In this document: piece after piece, positions 28,330-44,085 of the stretch
Numbering within the stretch: position 1 is the stretch's first letter
Layout of the letters: each line of letters starts with the position of its first letter
DNA from: an uncultured Dehalococcoidia bacterium
GTDB lineage: Bacteria; Chloroflexota; Dehalococcoidia; Lucifugimonadales; UBA3495
NCBI GenBank assembly: GCA_951813535.1
Contig: OX638345.1
Location: forward strand, 2,963,477-3,027,476
DNA: 64,000 nt
Direction: 5' to 3'
The notes under the pieces: generated by a model
Told to the model about the DNA's origin: nothing
Databases searched by the model: none
What the model saw: the letters and a program-made list of their open reading frames with translations, nothing else
Translations under genes and position numbers: made by a program

Positions 28330-29466
28330 ATGGCCAGGCGTTTGCTCAAAGAACTCGAACGGTCCTACGGGTTTGACGAAGTCGCCATCGTACCGGGAGA
28401 GGTCACGATCAACCCGGAAATGACGTCCACGCAGTTGAGCATCGGCCAATACTCCTTCGAAGCTCCCGTCATGGCCTCGGCGATGGACGGGTCGGTGTCG
28501 CCACGATTTGCGACGCTGATGCACGAAATGGGAGGCCTCGGCGTTCTGAATGGCGAGGGCCTCTACACCCGCTACGAAGACCCGTACTCCGTCCTGGAAG
28601 AGATCATTTCCATGGACCAGGGCGAAGTCACGGGGTACCTGCAAGAGGTATACAGCCAGCCGGTCCAGGAACACCTGATCGGCGAGCGGGTGCAGGAAAT
28701 CAAGCAGTCGGGATCCATCGCGGCCATCGCGTTCACGCCTCAGACCACCAAGCGGTTCAGCTCGCTGGCCGTGGAGTCGGGCGCTGATATTATCGTGGTG
28801 CAATCCACGGTGACCACCGCGCGGCACATGTCCCGCAGTTACCGGGGTCTCATCTTTTCCGAATTGATAGAATCGCTCAGTGTCCCTGTGGTCGTGGGCA
28901 ACTGCGTTAGCTACGCCGTTGCCAGCGAACTGATGGAAACCGGAATTGACGCGGTACTGGTTGGGGTTGGCCCCGGCGCGGCCTGCACTACGCGGGAGGT
29001 GACCGGGGTTGGCGTGCCTCAGGTGACGGCGACCCTGGAGTGCGCGGCAGCCCGGGAGGACTACTTCAAGCGCACCGGCCGGTACGTGAGCGTAATCACC
29101 GACGGCGGCCTGCGGACGGGCGGCGACGTGTGCAAGGCGCTGGCCAGCGGCGCTGACGGAGTGATGCTGGGCACGCCCTTTGCTCAAGCGGCGGAAGCGC
29201 CGGGACGTGGCTACAACTGGGGCATGGCGAACGCCCACCCCGAACTACCCCGGGGCACCCGCATCAACGTCGGCACCAAGGGCACACTGAAGCAACTGAT
29301 GCACGGACCATCCAGCGTCACCAACGGCACCCAGAACCTGGTTGGCGCCCTTCGGGTGGCGATGGGCATGTGCGGCGCGTACACGGTGCGCGATTTCCAC
29401 AAGTCTGAAATGGTCATCGCCCCGGCGATCAAGACCGAGGGCAAGCACTACCAGATGCTCGGATAA
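28330..29466 (+). CDS. guaB3: GuaB3-family IMP dehydrogenase-related protein
   Basis: 378 residues with no CBS domains, as in GuaB3 proteins of actinobacteria and Chloroflexota. The TIM barrel has the catalytic-loop motif GPGAACTTREVTGVGVPQ (Cys near 219) and SVITDGGLRTGGDVCKAL with the phosphate-binding Gly. The C-terminal flap region VGTKGTLKQLMHGPSSVTNGTQN differs from canonical IMPDH. GuaB3 enzymes have been linked to GMP reductase-like or alternative purine steps; activity here is uncertain. UGSC selenoprotein 1 begins 55 nt downstream. Confidence 0.9.
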   Translation: MARRLLKELERSYGFDEVAIVPGEVTINPEMTSTQLSIGQYSFEAPVMASAMDGSVSPRFATLMHEMGGLGVLNGEGLYTRYEDPYSVLEEIISMDQGEVTGYLQEVYSQPVQEHLIGERVQEIKQSGSIAAIAFTPQTTKRFSSLAVESGADIIVVQSTVTTARHMSRSYRGLIFSELIESLSVPVVVGNCVSYAVASELMETGIDAVLVGVGPGAACTTREVTGVGVPQVTATLECAAAREDYFKRTGRYVSVITDGGLRTGGDVCKALASGADGVMLGTPFAQAAEAPGRGYNWGMANAHPELPRGTRINVGTKGTLKQLMHGPSSVTNGTQNLVGALRVAMGMCGAYTVRDFHKSEMVIAPAIKTEGKHYQMLG

Positions 29467-29521: not shown

Positions 29522-30061
29522 ATGACGACCGCAACCATCCAGATTCTGGACCCTCGTCCGGAGCAAAAAACCGAGGAGCGGGCGGCCACCGACCGGTTGC
29601 CCAGCCTGGCGGGCAAGACCATCGGTCTGTTGGAAAACCGCAAATACCATTCCGACAACTTCCTGCAGGAGCTTCAGGTCATCCTGGAGGAGGAATACGC
29701 CGTCGAGAAGGTGGTCTACCTACGCAAGTTCAGCTTCAGCGCACCGTGCTCGGACGAGACCATCGAGGAACTGATCGAGCAATGCGATGCGGTGGTGCAC
29801 GGAATCGCGGATTGAGGAAGCTGCACGGCGTGGGGTCTCCACGACACAGTAGTTACCGAAACCCGCGGCGTTCCGTCGGTGAGCGTCATCACCGAGAGTT
29901 TCACCCGGGCCGCGCACGCCCGCGCATCCTCGCTGGGAATGCCCGGCGTCCAGATCCTGGCTCTGCCCAGCCCGCTGGCTCCCCGGTCGATACCGGACGT
30001 GCAGCAACTCGCGCACCAATACGCCGGCCAGATAGCCGAGATGCTGACCAACGGGAAGTAA
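29522..30061 (+). CDS. UGSC-family selenoprotein 1 (in-frame TGA = Sec98)
   Basis: 179 residues if the TGA at 29813-29815 is read as selenocysteine. Upstream the product ends ...VVHGIAD; the TGA is followed in frame by GSCTAWGLHDTV and runs 82 more codons to TAA at 30061. The U-G-S-C motif gives this family its name, known from marine metagenome selenoproteomes and also found with Cys. The ATG has GGAGGA upstream. A paralogue at 43543 matches along its length (LxGKxIGL, KxHS, UGSCTAxxxHD). A redox role through the Sec/Cys pair is inferred. A conventional stop would leave a 97-residue product lacking the motif. Confidence 0.9.
29816..29845 (+). promoter_or_regulatory. Bacterial SECIS-like element of UGSC 1
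   Basis: Directly after the TGA, CGTGG (29829-29833) pairs with CCACG (29839-29843) around loop GGTCT. The apical loop starts 18 nt after the TGA and begins with G, matching bacterial SECIS geometry (loop about 16-37 nt downstream, G among its first bases). Confidence 0.75.
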
Positions 30062-30096: not shown

Positions 30097-30915
30097 ATGA
30101 AGGTGGTCAACTGGAATGTTCAATGGGCTACGCCCGCTTCGGTGCGTAGCCCATACATTTTGAATCGCATCGCGGATCAATCCCCTGACATCGTTTGCCT
30201 CACGGAAACAGATCTCAGGCTGTTGGACACTTGGAGTGGGCACTTGGTTTCCGCTAAACCCGAACCGGGGAAATCAGCGGCCAACTACCAGCGCAAGGTG
30301 GTGATCTGGTCCCGTTTCCCGTGGAAATGCGTTGATGACTTGGGCAGCGAGGACTTGCCGCCGGGGCGGTTCGTGGCCGGAACCGCAGATACGCCTGTAG
30401 GCCAGATCAGGGTTATCGGGGTCTGCATCCCGTGGCACAACGCCAACGTGAACGTGGGAGCCAAGGACAAAGTGTCGTGGGCGGAACATTCCACCTATCT
30501 CCAAGGTTTGGCTTCGATTCTAAAACGCAAAACGTCATACCCGGTCGTTCTGACAGGCGACTTCAACCAACAGATCGGACAAGTCAACCGTCCCTATCCG
30601 CCGCTCTCCAATCCGGTGCGCGCCGGGTTGCAGAAAGCCATGCTTGCCGGGCCGACTCCGGGCTTGACCATAGCGACTGCCGGACTCGGACTGCGGGGCC
30701 GGCGCTCAATCGATCACATCGCCATTAGTAGCGATCTGTCCGCTGGCTCGCTGGCGACCATCGACAACATGGACGGGGAACGGCGGTTGTCAGACCATTT
30801 CGGCGTGGTCGCCGACTTGTCCACACGCGACGCCCCACAAAATCCACCGCAGAAGAGTGAATGTTATGACAAGCAACAGTCGAGCCTTGAACTCGCGCCG
30901 CATCACCGTGCCTGA
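30097..30915 (+). CDS. Endonuclease/exonuclease/phosphatase (EEP) family protein
   Basis: 272 residues. Order of motifs: MKVVNWNVQWA (metal Asn), DIVCLTETD (metal Glu), VVLTGDFNQQIG (Asp/Asn), RRSIDHIAIS and the terminal LSDHFGVVADL with catalytic His. This is the DNase I-like phosphoesterase fold; the substrate could be DNA, an inositol phosphate or a sphingolipid. The last ~30 codons past the domain overlap the next gene's start by about 50 nt. It separates UGSC 1 from its partner gene, unlike the second UGSC locus. Confidence 0.85.
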   Translation: MKVVNWNVQWATPASVRSPYILNRIADQSPDIVCLTETDLRLLDTWSGHLVSAKPEPGKSAANYQRKVVIWSRFPWKCVDDLGSEDLPPGRFVAGTADTPVGQIRVIGVCIPWHNANVNVGAKDKVSWAEHSTYLQGLASILKRKTSYPVVLTGDFNQQIGQVNRPYPPLSNPVRAGLQKAMLAGPTPGLTIATAGLGLRGRRSIDHIAISSDLSAGSLATIDNMDGERRLSDHFGVVADLSTRDAPQNPPQKSECYDKQQSSLELAPHHRA

Positions 30916-31939
30916 CACCTACGACGCGATCCAAGACTACTACGAAGAGCAGGGATGGACCGACGGCATGCCCGTAGTTCCGGCCACTGAGGACGCGGTA
31001 CAGCGCATGCTCGGCCCGTGGGGCGAGGATCCCTCGCTGTCCCTGGGCGTTGCGCAACCGTCCAATTCAGAAGTGAACATCGAGAAGGTCGCCATCAACG
31101 CGGTGATGGCCGGCTGCCGACCGGAGTACTTCCCGGTGGTGGTGGCGTGCGTGAAGGCAGCCCTGCAAACGCCGTTCAACCTGGCCGGGTGCCAGGCAAC
31201 CACGGGTGGCGCCGCCCCGGTGGTCATCGTCAACGGCCCGATTGCCGAGCGCCTGGGAATCAACGGCGATTCCGGGGCGTTCGGCCCCGGATACCGGGCC
31301 AACGCGACCATCGGCCGGGCGCTGCGCCTGTTCGTGCGCAACGTCGCCGGTCTCATCATTGGCGACATGGACAAGGCCACGCTGGCCATGCCCGGAAGAT
31401 ATTCCTTCTGCTTCGCCGAGAACGAGTCGCGCAGCCCGTGGGAGCCCAGACACGTGGAGTTGGGGTTGAATCCGGAAGACAGCATGGTGACCATCCACGC
31501 CATTCGCGCTTTCTATCCGGTCATGGAAACCACGGTGTCGCAGGGCGCCGACGTGCTCAACACGCTGGTGCAGGCGACCCGGGCCACCGGCTTCTCCAAC
31601 TTCTACCAGATCGGCACCGGAGCGCAGGTGACGTTGGTACTCAGCCCCGAGCACGCGGCTGAAATCGCGGCAGACGGGTTCACCAAGCAGGACGTGCGGG
31701 AGTACGTGTTCGAACATGCCAGGATGTCAATCGCGGATCTTTCCGGGCTGGGGCACTGGGGCAACCGGAATTACCCGGATTGGGTAGACGACGAAGATCC
31801 GGATACCATGGTTCCGATCGCACTTCAGGCCGACGATATCGTCGTCGTCGTGGCCGGGGGCGACGGCCGCCACTCCGCCTGGCTGGCCGGTTGGGGGGTG
31901 ACACGGGTGGTAACCGAGAAGATCGAAGTTCCGGGTTAG
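30866..31939 (+). CDS. UGSC-associated uncharacterised protein, paralogue 1
   Basis: About 357 residues from the ATG at 30866 (an in-frame GTG lies 9 nt earlier). Function unknown. It is clearly related to the protein at 42484: both have a W/D-A-xx-YY opening (YEEQGWTDGMPVVPAT), NAVMAGCxPExFPVVxA, an xINGDSG/INxG loop, RANATIGRALRLF, and an ENxxxSPW segment. No membrane segment or signal peptide is visible. Both copies are encoded beside a UGSC selenoprotein, so a shared pathway or complex is inferred. A hairpin (31964-31993) follows. Confidence 0.85.
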   Translation: MTSNSRALNSRRITVPDTYDAIQDYYEEQGWTDGMPVVPATEDAVQRMLGPWGEDPSLSLGVAQPSNSEVNIEKVAINAVMAGCRPEYFPVVVACVKAALQTPFNLAGCQATTGGAAPVVIVNGPIAERLGINGDSGAFGPGYRANATIGRALRLFVRNVAGLIIGDMDKATLAMPGRYSFCFAENESRSPWEPRHVELGLNPEDSMVTIHAIRAFYPVMETTVSQGADVLNTLVQATRATGFSNFYQIGTGAQVTLVLSPEHAAEIAADGFTKQDVREYVFEHARMSIADLSGLGHWGNRNYPDWVDDEDPDTMVPIALQADDIVVVVAGGDGRHSAWLAGWGVTRVVTEKIEVPG

Positions 31940-38918: not shown

Positions 38919-40304
38919 GTGGTTGCCGACCCGTATAGCGAACGGCAGTTGCCCCACGATCTCGAGGCCGAGGCAGCAGTTCTGGGTGCCTTGCTCATAG
39001 ACGGCGACGCCCTGCATCGGGTGACGTCACTGATCAAGCCCGAGGACTTCCACCGGGCCCGCCACCAGTTCTGCTTCGCCGCCGTCCTTGCGGTGTTCCT
39101 GCGCCAGGAGGCCATCGACCAGATCACGGTGGCCCGGGAGTTGCAGACGCAAGGCCGCTTGGAGATGGTGGGCGGACTTCCCTACCTGGGGCAACTCATC
39201 GCCGGCACGCCCACCTCGGTCAACGTGGAGCACTATGCCGCTATCGTCGCCGAGACGGCGGCCAAGCGGCGGATCATAGAGGCTGGCAACCGCATCGCCG
39301 AGTTGGGGTTCGACGAGGGTTCCGACGTCGATGAGACGATGCGCCAGTCAGTGGAGGTGCTTTTCGGCGTGCGTCCCGCGGCCGACGACCGGGGGTTCAT
39401 ACCGCTGAGCTCAGTGCTGGACGTCTACCTGCAGGGCGACATCGGCGACGTGTCCCTGACCGACGAACCGCCGTTGCAGAGCGGCTACAACGACTTCGAC
39501 AGCCTGCTGGGCGGTATGCAGCGGTCCGACTTGCTGATCGTGGGCGCGCGTCCCGGCCTGGGCAAGAGCAGCCTCGCCCTCAACATCTGCACGAACGCGG
39601 CCAAAGCCGGTCAGACCTGCGGCATCTTCAGCCTGGAAATGAGCCGCGAGCAGGTGGCCATGCGCATGCTGGTGGCCGAATCAGGCGTTGACTCGCACCG
39701 GCTGCGTCTCGGTCTACTGTCGGAAAACGAGCAGAACGTGATCTCCGACGCCGTCGGCCTGCTTTCGGGTCTCCCGATCTTCATCGACGACACTCCATTC
39801 CAAACCACCATGGACATGCGGAGCAAGGCCCAACGGCTGCAGTTGGAGCACGGGCTGGACTTTTTGGTGGTCGACTACCTCCAGCTGATAATGGGCGGTG
39901 GCCGCCGCCAGGGTTACGGCGAGAACCGGGTGCAGGAGATCAGCGAGATTTCGCGGTCCCTCAAGGGCATGGCCCGGAACCTGAACGTGCCGGTGTTCAC
40001 GTGCTCTCAGCTCAGCCGGGTGGTGGAAAACCGTCCCGGCCATCGCCCCCAGCTTTCCGACCTGCGCGACAGCGGCAGCATCGAGCAGGACGCGGACGTG
40101 GTGACCTTCCTCTACCGGGAGGACCGAACGTTCACCGGGGAAGAGTGGGAACAGCACGCGCCCGGCCGACCCTATCCGCGAAACCTCGTGGAACTGATCG
40201 TCGCCAAGCACCGGCACGGGCCCACCGGGAGCTTGCACCTGTACTTCCGTGACAACTTGATGCGATTCGACGAACTGGCGCGCTACGAAGAGTCCGTCGC
40301 TTAG
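38919..40304 (+). CDS. dnaB: Replicative DNA helicase DnaB
   Basis: 461 residues from a GTG with AGAGGA upstream. The N-terminal DnaB domain (LPHDLEAEAAVLGALLIDGDAL) precedes a RecA-like helicase core with Walker A GARPGLGKSS near 209, Walker B FLVVDYLQLIMGG, and RDSGSIEQDADVVTFLYRED. It unwinds the replication fork. It ends 1 nt before the dnaD-like gene and is clustered with a loader candidate, suggesting a helicase-loading operon. Confidence 0.97.
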   Translation: MVADPYSERQLPHDLEAEAAVLGALLIDGDALHRVTSLIKPEDFHRARHQFCFAAVLAVFLRQEAIDQITVARELQTQGRLEMVGGLPYLGQLIAGTPTSVNVEHYAAIVAETAAKRRIIEAGNRIAELGFDEGSDVDETMRQSVEVLFGVRPAADDRGFIPLSSVLDVYLQGDIGDVSLTDEPPLQSGYNDFDSLLGGMQRSDLLIVGARPGLGKSSLALNICTNAAKAGQTCGIFSLEMSREQVAMRMLVAESGVDSHRLRLGLLSENEQNVISDAVGLLSGLPIFIDDTPFQTTMDMRSKAQRLQLEHGLDFLVVDYLQLIMGGGRRQGYGENRVQEISEISRSLKGMARNLNVPVFTCSQLSRVVENRPGHRPQLSDLRDSGSIEQDADVVTFLYREDRTFTGEEWEQHAPGRPYPRNLVELIVAKHRHGPTGSLHLYFRDNLMRFDELARYEESVA

Positions 40305-41120
40305 ATGGACGATGTCGCTGGCAAAGCGACTCTCCCGGCCAACGCACGCCGGATCCCGATACCGGCGGCGGCACTCGCGCAATGGCTCGCCGACATCGAC
40401 GACATCGTTGAACTCAAGGTGACCCTCCGGGCGCTGGCCCTCCTGGCGGAGGAGCCACGCCGCCGGTCGGTTCCGCCGTCGATAGACCTTGAAGACCTTC
40501 TGGACGACCAAGTTCTCGGCACTGCGCTGTCCGGCCAAGTAGAGAATTCCGTGCGATCCGGGCTGGCAGCCGCCGTCGGACGCGGCACGTTGGTAGCAAT
40601 TCGGGACGCCGGCACGATGCGCGTCCTGCTGAACGACGAGGACTGCCGGCGATACGTGGAGACCGCGAGCCCCACGGAGTTGACCGCCGCCGACCTGACC
40701 GGACTGGCGGGCGTCGATGCGCCGGAACCGCTGCCGCAGCCGCCGACAACGGAAGAACCGCGTGCTAACATATTCGCCTTATACGAGCAGCACATCGGCC
40801 CGTACGGCCACAGCGTTGCGGAGCAGTTGCGGGCGGCGGAAGAGGAGTATCCGGCGGAATGGATCGCCGACGCCATAGCCTTTGCCGTGGAAAGAAACGC
40901 ACGTACGTGGCGGTATATCGACGCTGTGCTGCGCGGCTGGAAACAAGAGCGCCAGACCGGCCCCGGGGCGGGCATAAACGACCGAGCCAGAGATAACCGC
41001 CATGAGCATGGAGAGCCTGGGAGCGATACTGCGCCGGATAGCCGCACGGGATACCTGGACAGCTATCGACGCCGACACGGCCGACTACCCTGGGAGCCCG
41101 GAGAGCCGGAACGGCGCTGA
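40305..41120 (+). CDS. DnaD-domain protein (primosome-like)
   Basis: 271 residues. The C-terminal half carries a DnaD/DnaB_2 domain: NIFALYEQHIGPYGHSVAEQLRA, then EEYPAEWIADAIAFAVERNARTWRYIDAVLRGW (about 150-210). A basic tail ending in SYRRRHGRLPWEPGE follows. The N-terminal ~130 residues may be a winged-helix part. In Firmicutes such proteins help load DnaB with DnaI. Its start follows dnaB's stop directly, and its last ~119 nt overlap the next gene. Confidence 0.85.
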   Translation: MDDVAGKATLPANARRIPIPAAALAQWLADIDDIVELKVTLRALALLAEEPRRRSVPPSIDLEDLLDDQVLGTALSGQVENSVRSGLAAAVGRGTLVAIRDAGTMRVLLNDEDCRRYVETASPTELTAADLTGLAGVDAPEPLPQPPTTEEPRANIFALYEQHIGPYGHSVAEQLRAAEEEYPAEWIADAIAFAVERNARTWRYIDAVLRGWKQERQTGPGAGINDRARDNRHEHGEPGSDTAPDSRTGYLDSYRRRHGRLPWEPGEPERR

Positions 41121-42399
41121 GGACTGCGAGCGGTGCGGCGGCGCGGGTTGGGTCACGCGCCGGGTCCACGTGACCAATCCCGATTTCGGGAAGGTGTTTC
41201 CCTGCCAGTGCCAGGAACAGGACGTTGATCAGCGTCAGAGGATTGAGGCCCTGGAGCGGTACAGCAACCTGGGTTCACTGCGCCAGGCTACATTCGAAAA
41301 CGCCAACCCGGATGGCCTAAGCCAGGAGACCGCGGCACGACAGGCTTTTCGCAACGCTCTCACCGCGGCTTCCGACTACGCCGAAAGCCCCGAGGGGTGG
41401 CTCACCCTCGTCGGTCCCAGCGGGAGCGGCAAGACCTACCTGGCCGCAGCCATCGCCAACCGCCGTATCGAGTTGGGCAATCCGGCCCTGTTCATCACGG
41501 CGGCTGATCTCATCGATTACCTGCGCAGCGTTTTCGATGACGAAGCCGACCAGCCTTTCGTTGACCTGTTCGAGCAGGTCCGCAACGCTCCGTTGCTGGT
41601 TCTCGACGACCTGCCCACCCGACCGCCCACTCCCTGGACGCAGGAGCGGCTGTTCCAGTTACTGGCCTCCCGGCACGCTGCCCGCCTGCTCACGGTGATC
41701 ACCCTGCGCGGCGACCCAAATCGCCTGGATGACTTCCTCCGCACCCGGGTGGAATCGCCGGACGGGTTCGGACGTGTCTACCGCTTGGGAAGGGTCAGCG
41801 GTTCGACAGCCCGATCCATCGGCTCGGTCCCGCCCAACATGCGGACTAGGATGACTTTCGCGGCGTTCGACCCGTCCGGCAACGGCCAATTGACCGACTA
41901 CCAGCAGCGCAGCCTGCGGGCGGCCAAATCCTACGTGCAACGGTGGGCCAACAGCCCGGACGGCTGGCTCAGCCTCCACGGACCCTACGGCGTCGGCAAG
42001 ACCCACCTGGCAGTTGCGGCGGCGGGTGAGCGCGAAGACCGGGGTGACGAAGTCTTCTTTGCCACAGTTGCCGACCTGCTCGATTACCTGCGAGCCACCT
42101 TCGCGCCGGACAGCGACGTTAGCCATGACGACCTCCTGGACCGTATCCGCAACGCCGACGTGCTGGTGCTGGACGACATGGGAGCCGAGCGCAGTACGCC
42201 CTTCGCCGAGGACAAGCTATTCCAGATCGTGGGGTACCGCTACGAAGAGCGCCTGCCTACCATCATCACCACGTCCCAGCAGATCGAGGCCATTGCATCC
42301 GCGCGCCCGCGCATCGCCTCCCGCCTGCAGGACCCGCTGGTGGTCACCGAAATGCCCATGGAAGCCCCGGACTTCCGGCGGGGCGGTTTGCGCAACTGA
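41002..42399 (+). CDS. DnaC/DnaI-like helicase loader with two AAA+ modules
   Basis: 465 residues. An N-terminal zinc-binding segment (CERCGGAGW...PCQCQ) is followed by two consecutive DnaC-type ATPase modules. Module 1 has Walker A GPSGSGKT near 138 and Walker B LLVLDDLPTRPP. Module 2 has Walker A GPYGVGKT near 327 and Walker B VLVLDDMGAERST, ending with the IASRLQDP sensor/Arg motif. Both share the pattern LFxTxADLxDYLRxxF, indicating an internal duplication. Bacterial loaders normally have one module. Its place after dnaB and a dnaD-like gene supports helicase loading. Confidence 0.85.
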   Translation: MSMESLGAILRRIAARDTWTAIDADTADYPGSPESRNGAEDCERCGGAGWVTRRVHVTNPDFGKVFPCQCQEQDVDQRQRIEALERYSNLGSLRQATFENANPDGLSQETAARQAFRNALTAASDYAESPEGWLTLVGPSGSGKTYLAAAIANRRIELGNPALFITAADLIDYLRSVFDDEADQPFVDLFEQVRNAPLLVLDDLPTRPPTPWTQERLFQLLASRHAARLLTVITLRGDPNRLDDFLRTRVESPDGFGRVYRLGRVSGSTARSIGSVPPNMRTRMTFAAFDPSGNGQLTDYQQRSLRAAKSYVQRWANSPDGWLSLHGPYGVGKTHLAVAAAGEREDRGDEVFFATVADLLDYLRATFAPDSDVSHDDLLDRIRNADVLVLDDMGAERSTPFAEDKLFQIVGYRYEERLPTIITTSQQIEAIASARPRIASRLQDPLVVTEMPMEAPDFRRGGLRN

Positions 42400-42483: not shown

Positions 42484-43485
42484 ATGACCACCCTCAGCTT
42501 CGCCGACTGGAACGACGCCCAGGATTACTACTTCGCCAACGGCCTCACCGACGGTCTGCCCATCGTCCCGCCTACTCCGGACCGCGTGCAGGCTATGTTG
42601 GATTACGGCGGCGTCGATGCCGACCACGACCTGGGAACCGAGATCATCCGGCAGAAGCGGTTCACGGCCGGCAAAGCCGCGGTCAACGCCGTGATGGCCG
42701 GTTGCCTACCGGAGCATTTCCCGGTGGTGATGGCGGCGCTGTCGGCGATCACGGACCGCAGTTTCAACCTCCACGCCAGCAGCACCTCCACCAACGGCGC
42801 AACCGTCCTCTCGGTGGTCAGCGGACCCTACGCCGAGGCCATCGGGATGAACGCGGGCGTGGAGATGATGGGCAACGGCAGCCGCGCCAACGCCGCCATC
42901 GGCCGGGCGGTGAACCTGTTCAAGTCCAACTTTTACGGCTCGGTTCCGGTGGTGATGGACAACAGCACCTTCGGCCACGCCGGCAAGATCACCTTCAGCT
43001 TCCCCGAGAACCTGGCCATCAGCCCGTGGCCGTCGCTGGCGTCGGAACTGGGCTACGGCGACGACGCCACCATCGTGAGAGCCTTCGCCACCCTGGCGCC
43101 CCTGCAGGTGACCCTGCTTGGCGGCCGGGATCCGGCCGACTTTCTTACCACCGTGGCCCACTCCATGCTCGCCTTCGGCCCGGGCATGCCGGAAGTGATC
43201 TGCGTCATCAGCCCGGAGGCCATGCAGCATGTGGCGGCGGCCGGCTGGTCACGCCAGCGGGTGGCCGATTTCCTGCACGACAAGGCGAGGCTGCCGGTCG
43301 CGGAGTGGATGCGCTGGAAACGCATGGGGCACGAACTGGACCACGACCGGCTGGTCCCCGTGGTTCCGGAAGCCGACCGGATCACGGTACTGCCCGGGGG
43401 AGGCATGGCTGGAGCATTCGTGAGCCTCATCGCCACCTGGGGTTCCAGCCGCTCAGTCATCCGCCCAGTGGCCGTGCCCGACTGA
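42484..43485 (+). CDS. UGSC-associated uncharacterised protein, paralogue 2
   Basis: 333 residues, function unknown. Motifs shared with the protein at 30866 are a DAQDYYFANGLTDGLPIVPPTP opening, AAVNAVMAGCLPEHFPVVMAAL, an IGMNAG loop, RANAAIGRAVNLF and an ENxxISPW segment. It is soluble with no signal peptide. It directly precedes UGSC selenoprotein 2 (57 nt gap), forming the simplest version of the two-gene unit. The conserved Cys in VMAGCLPE is a candidate functional residue (inference). Confidence 0.87.
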   Translation: MTTLSFADWNDAQDYYFANGLTDGLPIVPPTPDRVQAMLDYGGVDADHDLGTEIIRQKRFTAGKAAVNAVMAGCLPEHFPVVMAALSAITDRSFNLHASSTSTNGATVLSVVSGPYAEAIGMNAGVEMMGNGSRANAAIGRAVNLFKSNFYGSVPVVMDNSTFGHAGKITFSFPENLAISPWPSLASELGYGDDATIVRAFATLAPLQVTLLGGRDPADFLTTVAHSMLAFGPGMPEVICVISPEAMQHVAAAGWSRQRVADFLHDKARLPVAEWMRWKRMGHELDHDRLVPVVPEADRITVLPGGGMAGAFVSLIATWGSSRSVIRPVAVPD

Positions 43486-43542
43486 CACCATCGCTGTCCC
43501 GCGTTATGCCTGCGCCCCGGACCCAAACAAGGAGGTCATCGC

Positions 43543-44085
43543 ATGACAACACAAGGCTCACCCATCGTCACGCTGGACCCGCGTGACGACTCTCCGCCGG
43601 CCCCGTCGCGGTTGGCGCAGCGCCCGGCAACCCTGGACGGCAAGGTGATCGGGTTGTTCGCCAACAACAAGCCTCACTCGGAGGACCTGCTTCGCCGCAT
43701 CGCCGCCATCATCGGCGAGCGCTACGACATCGCCGGCACGGTGGAGCACAACAAGGGCGGATGGCAGTGGCCGGCCCGCATCGAGGACCTGCAGCGCACC
43801 GCAAAGAGCATTGACGTGGCAATACACGCCACGGCGGAATGAGGGTCCTGCACCGCGTGCAGTGTGCACGACGCAATGGAAACCGAGCTGCTGGGCATCC
43901 CGTCCACCGTGTTGACCACCCGGCCGTTCGTGAGCCAGGCCCGCGCCATGTCCCGCATGCGCGGCGATCCCGAGTACGGCCTCGCGATCGTTGAGCACCC
44001 CATCGTCACTCTGACCGACGCCGAGCTGTCCGAGCGGGCAACTACTGCGGCGACCCAGGTGATCGCCTGCGTGGTCGACCGGTAG
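43543..44085 (+). CDS. UGSC-family selenoprotein 2 (in-frame TGA = Sec100)
   Basis: 180 residues if TGA at 43840-43842 encodes selenocysteine. The upstream half ends ...VAIHATAE; the TGA is followed in frame by GSCTACSVHDAMETELLGIPS and a further ~65 codons to TAG at 44085. The ATG has AAGGAGG upstream. It is homologous throughout to selenoprotein 1, including the TGA at the same aligned position and the downstream HD. An additional Cys follows (SCTAC). Sec-dependent redox chemistry is inferred. Ordinary translation would give a 99-residue product without the motif. Confidence 0.9.
43843..43872 (+). promoter_or_regulatory. Bacterial SECIS-like element of UGSC 2
   Basis: CGTGCA (43856-43861) pairs perfectly with TGCACG (43865-43870) around the loop GTG. 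The loop begins 19 nt after the TGA and opens with GT, the bacterial SECIS preference. Confidence 0.78.

Follow-up and report, generated by a model that had tools for sequence, protein, structure and literature searches.

In the survey of the Global Ocean Sampling data in which selenoproteins of the UGSC family were described in 2008, they ranked, with 255 sequences, in the top five selenoprotein families by number, and no function is given for them (PMC2398784). A 2026 review still regards the functions of such families as largely uncharacterised (PMC13188914), and no assignment of a function to UGSC was found in the literature searched. The family is represented by the Pfam entry PF24696 and the NCBIfam entry NF041046 ('UGSC family (seleno)protein') and corresponds to the 'UGSC-containing protein' of the 2008 survey. 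Two further groups of selenoproteins have to be considered for comparison, namely the selenoproteins B of the Stickland reductases, i.e. the glycine reductase type (GrdB/GrdF/GrdH) and PrdB of D-proline reductase, and the selenoproteins with a thioredoxin fold. In glycine reductase, a selenocysteine (Sec) selenolate cleaves the carbon-nitrogen bond via a selenoether and the electrons are given by thioredoxin (PMC10298544).

The window analysed here comprises 64,000 nucleotides of contig OX638345.1 of an uncultured Dehalococcoidia bacterium (Chloroflexota), the genome of which consists of a single contig of 4.38 Mb. The gene under study, here termed UGSC copy 2, is located at positions 43543..44085 on the plus strand, starts with ATG preceded by AGGAGG at 43530-43535, ends with TAG and encodes 180 aa including Sec at residue 100. 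Its frame is open except for a single TGA (43840..43842, plus strand), which lies in the context ...IHATAE-U-GSCTACSVHD.... With this TGA read as Sec, copy 2 is a full-length Pfam UGSC protein (PF24696, 144.4 bits, E 4.8e-42, gathering score 25), and the defining motif with Sec or Cys in first place is found as the TGA followed by GSC. Domain length, UGSC motif, TGA column and the N-terminal LDP motif are shared with the described family, whereas the score of copy 2 against NF041046 is below the NCBI equivalog cut-off (107.6 versus 125 bits). By its profile scores copy 2 thus belongs in PF24696 and not in the NF041046 equivalog. Among selenoproteins, copy 2 thus adds a member to an already known family; the interest lies in the functional proposal.

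When all six frames of the window were searched for [U/C]GSC, this yielded copy 2, one match in a zinc-ribbon-like context and a further UGSC gene, copy 1 (29522..30061, plus strand; 179 aa with Sec; PF24696 164.6 bits), the NF041046 score of which is above the cut-off (130.9 bits). The in-frame TGA of copy 1 (29813..29815, plus strand; ...VHGIAD-U-GSCTAWGLHD...) and that of copy 2 fall into one alignment column, as the initial annotation had stated. The two proteins are 30% identical overall, and copy 2 is nearer to UGSC proteins of other Chloroflexota (L041 and L042; 45-47% identity) than to copy 1. Judged by these identities, the copies are old paralogues and not the product of a recent duplication, and the shared TGA would therefore be an inherited, ancient Sec codon. 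The initial annotation had called copy 2 an independent paralogue and had argued that two independent nonsense mutations at one motif are very unlikely; the paralogy was borne out, but not an independent origin of the TGA, and the wording is imprecise for a codon that is ancestral to the family, even if its inheritance by old paralogues still argues against nonsense mutation. The source genome contains eight UGSC genes in total, and every one of them has a single TGA in frame. Copy 1 is immediately preceded by a gene for an IMP dehydrogenase/GMP reductase-like protein (28330-29466, plus strand).

Standard annotation would stop copy 2 at 99 aa, and 43543-44085 could accordingly be read as a pseudogene in which the TGA arose by nonsense mutation or sequencing error, or as a gene under an alternative code with TGA for Trp or Gly. 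The codon was compared at 118 distinct homologous sites, taken from loci and genomes: it was TGA in 117 cases and TGC in one, the haloarchaeon Natrialba (L080), and never TAA or TAG, and all 13 same-genus orthologues of copy 2 carry TGA. In a sample of 251 evenly chosen genomes of the phylum, one TGA was present in 68 of the 69 UGSC matches listed. Cys forms of UGSC occur in haloarchaea and Arthrobacter. Rare UGSC-like matches without an in-frame TGA were also observed (G229:C21:50387-50908 and G009:C45:46603-47109), both in genomes that hold TGA forms as well. Selection beyond the TGA, proposed as a check in the initial annotation, proved to be purifying, with a median dN/dS of 0.055 downstream versus 0.074 upstream of the codon in 91 pairs drawn from copy 2 and its 13 same-genus orthologues, compared with pN/pS values of 2.3 and 6.1 in the shifted frames of the copy 2 orthologue set; the pairs are not independent and the synonymous sites are moderately diverged, and the contrast with the shifted frames is very large.

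The machinery for Sec incorporation is complete in the source genome, which encodes SelA (542 bits), SelB (355 bits), a tRNA-Sec with anticodon TCA (66 bits) and SelD, the gene of the latter carrying a TGA itself. The co-occurrence of SelA with UGSC is weak evidence, since 203 of the 251 genomes in the phylum sample encode SelA, as do 26 of the 27 in which UGSC was detected. TGA is a real stop in the copy 2 orthologues L128 and L138 and in the neighbouring partner gene at 42484-43485, so that it is not reassigned in the source genome. Taken with the retention of the TGA in all same-genus orthologues and the low dN/dS beyond it, this leaves a pseudogene or a recoded gene with a negligible probability.

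Just downstream of the TGA, a putative bacterial SECIS element was found, the apical part of which is a hairpin at 43856..43870 (plus strand; CGTGC-AGTGT-GCACG) with a stem of 5 bp and a loop of five bases beginning 18 nt past the TGA. The hairpin is conserved at a fixed distance from the TGA and occurs at the same distance in copy 1 (29829..29843, plus strand; CGTGG-GGTCT-CCACG). The stem was completely paired in 94% of 116 sequences versus 17% after synonymous-codon shuffling, and 98.6% of the pairs were formed versus 91.0% after column shuffling. Two-sided changes were seen at three of the five stem pairs, including the compensatory change that distinguishes copy 1 from copy 2 (CGTGG/CCACG versus CGTGC/GCACG). 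The folding energy of the hairpin in single sequences is unexceptional (z -0.65 and -1.81), and no matching Rfam family was found in this stretch. Three of four Cys forms keep all five pairs with a different loop, and protein constraint therefore accounts for part of the signal. What was found corresponds to the description of a bacterial SECIS element, namely a conserved putative stem-loop just past the UGA with compensatory changes; elements of this kind may be specific to their bacterial host. Codon conservation, Sec machinery, selection and the SECIS-like hairpin all support the Sec decoding that had been proposed in the initial annotation. From this comparative evidence it appears virtually certain that copy 2 is a genuine selenoprotein, Sec decoding being strongly supported, and Sec would be inserted at this position in vivo.

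Directly upstream of copy 2, at 42484..43485 on the plus strand, lies the gene of a 333-aa protein, here termed the partner, which has no match in Pfam, NCBIfam or PDB and was modelled with a pLDDT of 94.8. Conserved residues of the partner are D23, C74, R134, R141, D159, E175 and W182. Exactly eight members of this family of approximately 335 aa are encoded in the source genome, one beside, near or fused to each UGSC gene. The partner of copy 1 (30866..31939, plus strand; a GTG start at 30857 is also possible) is 38% identical to that of copy 2 and is located approximately 0.8 kb downstream of copy 1, and in copy 8 UGSC and partner form a single open frame read through the TGA, i.e. a natural fusion. 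Between copy 1 and its partner, an endonuclease/exonuclease/phosphatase-family gene was observed (30097-30915, plus strand). Upstream of the copy 2 pair, the window contains a gene (41002-42399, plus strand) whose single product of 465 aa has two IstB/DnaC-like AAA ATPase regions in tandem (residues ~130-230 and ~285-448), a doubled helicase-loader-like arrangement, which adjoins the genes of a DnaB_2-domain protein (40305-41120) and of a replicative-helicase-like open reading frame (38919-40304).

When 84,980 species genomes were scanned with a profile of the partner, the best 80 loci came from many phyla, and UGSC was present in 76 of these 80, in 75 cases on the same strand and with a median gap of 73 nt. 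This near-constant pairing of UGSC with one uncharacterised partner gene is new here. The 2008 survey, in the part describing the family, mentions a fusion of UGSC to a domain called Unknown_1 (PMC2398784), which as named there may be the partner family described here. Relatives on plasmids include haloarchaeal Cys forms and UGSC-partner fusions of Sporomusa and Vibrio. In 49 partner proteins, only one-off NCBIfam hits were obtained, and none of the matches in Pfam, NCBIfam or, by sequence, PDB describes the family; PDB sequence searches with the UGSC and partner profiles likewise revealed no relative. Modelling 42484-44082 as one chain, in which partner and copy 2 share a frame, served as a device and implies no fusion; the joined chain was predicted with a pLDDT of 91 and a pTM of 0.87, scores which suggest a defined arrangement of the UGSC and partner parts. 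Given the conserved pairing, it is very likely that UGSC and partner operate as a pair, and they would do so as a complex. The genes adjoining such pairs elsewhere encode transporters, amidohydrolases, CoA transferases, luciferase-like (flavin) monooxygenases and LysR regulators; in the survey of neighbouring genes nothing was recurrent enough to indicate a substrate, and the varied neighbours would fit catabolism.

Profile comparisons point to the Stickland reductases. Among 34 UGSC proteins, the only strong NCBIfam matches other than UGSC that recurred were those to GrdB (16), PrdB (11), GrdF (8) and, in six proteins, the combined model of selenoprotein B; these matches cover the Sec motif, and other families appeared only sporadically. 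The similarity to GrdB is weak, with a best E value of 5e-5 and a limitation to ~80-155 residues, and the best relative reached 22.4 bits versus 602, under all cut-offs of TIGR01917, TIGR01918, TIGR04483 and PF07355. Copy 2 itself gave no GrdB match in the NCBIfam scan. When six GrdB proteins of the same taxonomic family or order were translated across their own Sec codon and compared with the UGSC profile, 85.7% was obtained at an E value of 5e-6, and the Sec motifs were aligned with each other; a PDB sequence search with GrdB from the same taxonomic family found no relative. Apart from the profile similarity at the Sec motif, UGSC shares with Grd selenoprotein B and PrdB the UxxC motif, a probable two-subunit arrangement and, beside one pair, thioredoxin genes. 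In contrast to GrdB and PrdB, it scores far under the curated cut-offs, resembles the Sec-bearing half only, occurs in many lineages beyond amino-acid fermenters and has no detected pyruvoyl partner, as no likeness of the partner to the pyruvoyl subunit (GrdE/PrdA) and no recurrent NCBIfam or Pfam match was seen in the 49 partner proteins. By profile comparison, UGSC would accordingly appear to be distantly related to the half of GrdB/PrdB that carries Sec, in the sense of remote homology and not of membership. A second Sec family was observed in the same genus, a PrdB/GRDB-like protein (PF07355) with TGA in a UPLC motif (UPLCTHAVSVLARVFE...), beyond which the frame continues; the example at G000:C1:4347088-4347501 and onward (L173) has relatives L162-L183, and the TGA is conserved across the same-genus genomes.

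The UGSC selenoprotein could instead be a general thiol-disulfide oxidoreductase of thioredoxin or peroxidase type, with the partner as its client or regulator. Motifs of the UxxC type are characteristic of thiol redox proteins, and the family is described as likely Trx-fold in the 2008 survey (PMC2398784). Furthermore, the order trxB-trxA-partner-UGSC(Cys) was found in an operon on an Arthrobacter plasmid, the one clear case in which thioredoxin and its reductase adjoin the pair. However, the UGSC model is built from five beta/alpha units in strict alternation. Sec is placed at the junction of a strand and the helix after it, with the UxxC cysteine further on; the order in the thioredoxin fold is beta-alpha-beta-alpha-beta-beta-alpha. 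The top structural matches of the model were general alpha/beta folds (Rossmann- and flavodoxin-like) and not thioredoxin; the Foldseek and VIA lists contained only such general matches for UGSC and only weak matches for the partner. The fold as modelled would thus tend to count against the 2008 assumption of a thioredoxin fold. With the thioredoxin-fold selenoproteins (Trx-like, Prx-like and SelW) UGSC has in common a Sec and, three positions further, a Cys, and it differs from them by this predicted fold and by its dedicated large partner. Near-obligate pairing or fusion with a large conserved partner amid variable catabolic neighbours suits a substrate-specific enzyme better, and with the profile similarity pointing to GrdB/PrdB a general oxidoreductase is considered unlikely.

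The Cys form of the Arthrobacter plasmid (L151:5944-6759) carries an extra C-terminal NifU-like domain with a weak NifU match, and a PF01106 match (E 4.3e-6) was seen in one member of the scanned UGSC set. The same operon also holds genes for thioredoxin, thioredoxin reductase, phosphosulfolactate synthase and a CocE/NonD hydrolase.

The fusions of Sporomusa (L155:5320-7044) and Vibrio (L156:5368-7053) have MGTS in place of UGSC, so that a branch of the superfamily functions with neither Sec nor Cys, and they lie near genes for aconitase X and DUF126. These fusions could also reflect an ancestral non-redox role, the pair then being of lyase or hydratase type, with Sec or Cys binding a metal or the substrate without redox turnover. 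A weak fumarase match in one UGSC member goes in the same direction, as does the first rank of class I fumarate hydratases in the Foldseek search with the partner (E 3.7e-5); the latter identification was rejected, as its rmsd of 16-17 and VIA Z of ~5 are under the trust level. The fused forms are remote, and the main family exchanges Sec only for Cys, which argues for a redox or nucleophile role. A lyase or hydratase is therefore regarded as distinctly improbable, even more so than a general thiol oxidoreductase.

The preferred reading is a Sec-decoded UGSC protein that acts together with its partner in the manner of a Stickland reductase and is coupled to thioredoxin; as a whole, this reading is given a probability of about 0.5. 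SelB and tRNA-Sec would decode UGA 100 as Sec, aided by the SECIS-like hairpin just downstream, and the UGSC product would probably form a two-subunit enzyme together with the adjacent protein of ~335 aa. The selenolate would attack a small organic substrate held jointly with the partner, and the outcome would be reductive cleavage of a bond to carbon or a related reduction by two electrons. In the course of this a selenenylsulfide would form between Sec and the UxxC cysteine, which thioredoxin and thioredoxin reductase would restore. Chemistry, electron donor and substrate class are proposed here by analogy, and for the Stickland-like chemistry as such the odds are even at best. The presence of several parallel pairs in one genome suggests that these would act on different substrates.

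For annotation, it follows that standard gene calling would truncate eight genes of the source genome at the Sec codon. UGSC and its partner may, more tentatively and with the balance leaning slightly against it, represent a new and widespread class of two-subunit, thioredoxin-coupled selenoenzymes of shared ancestry with the Stickland reductases, which would degrade small organic compounds, with as many as eight or more parallel pairs in a single genome. With the partner gene, the natural fusions, the thioredoxin operon and the link to GrdB/PrdB, an orphan selenoprotein would become a concrete two-protein enzyme that is open to purification and assay.
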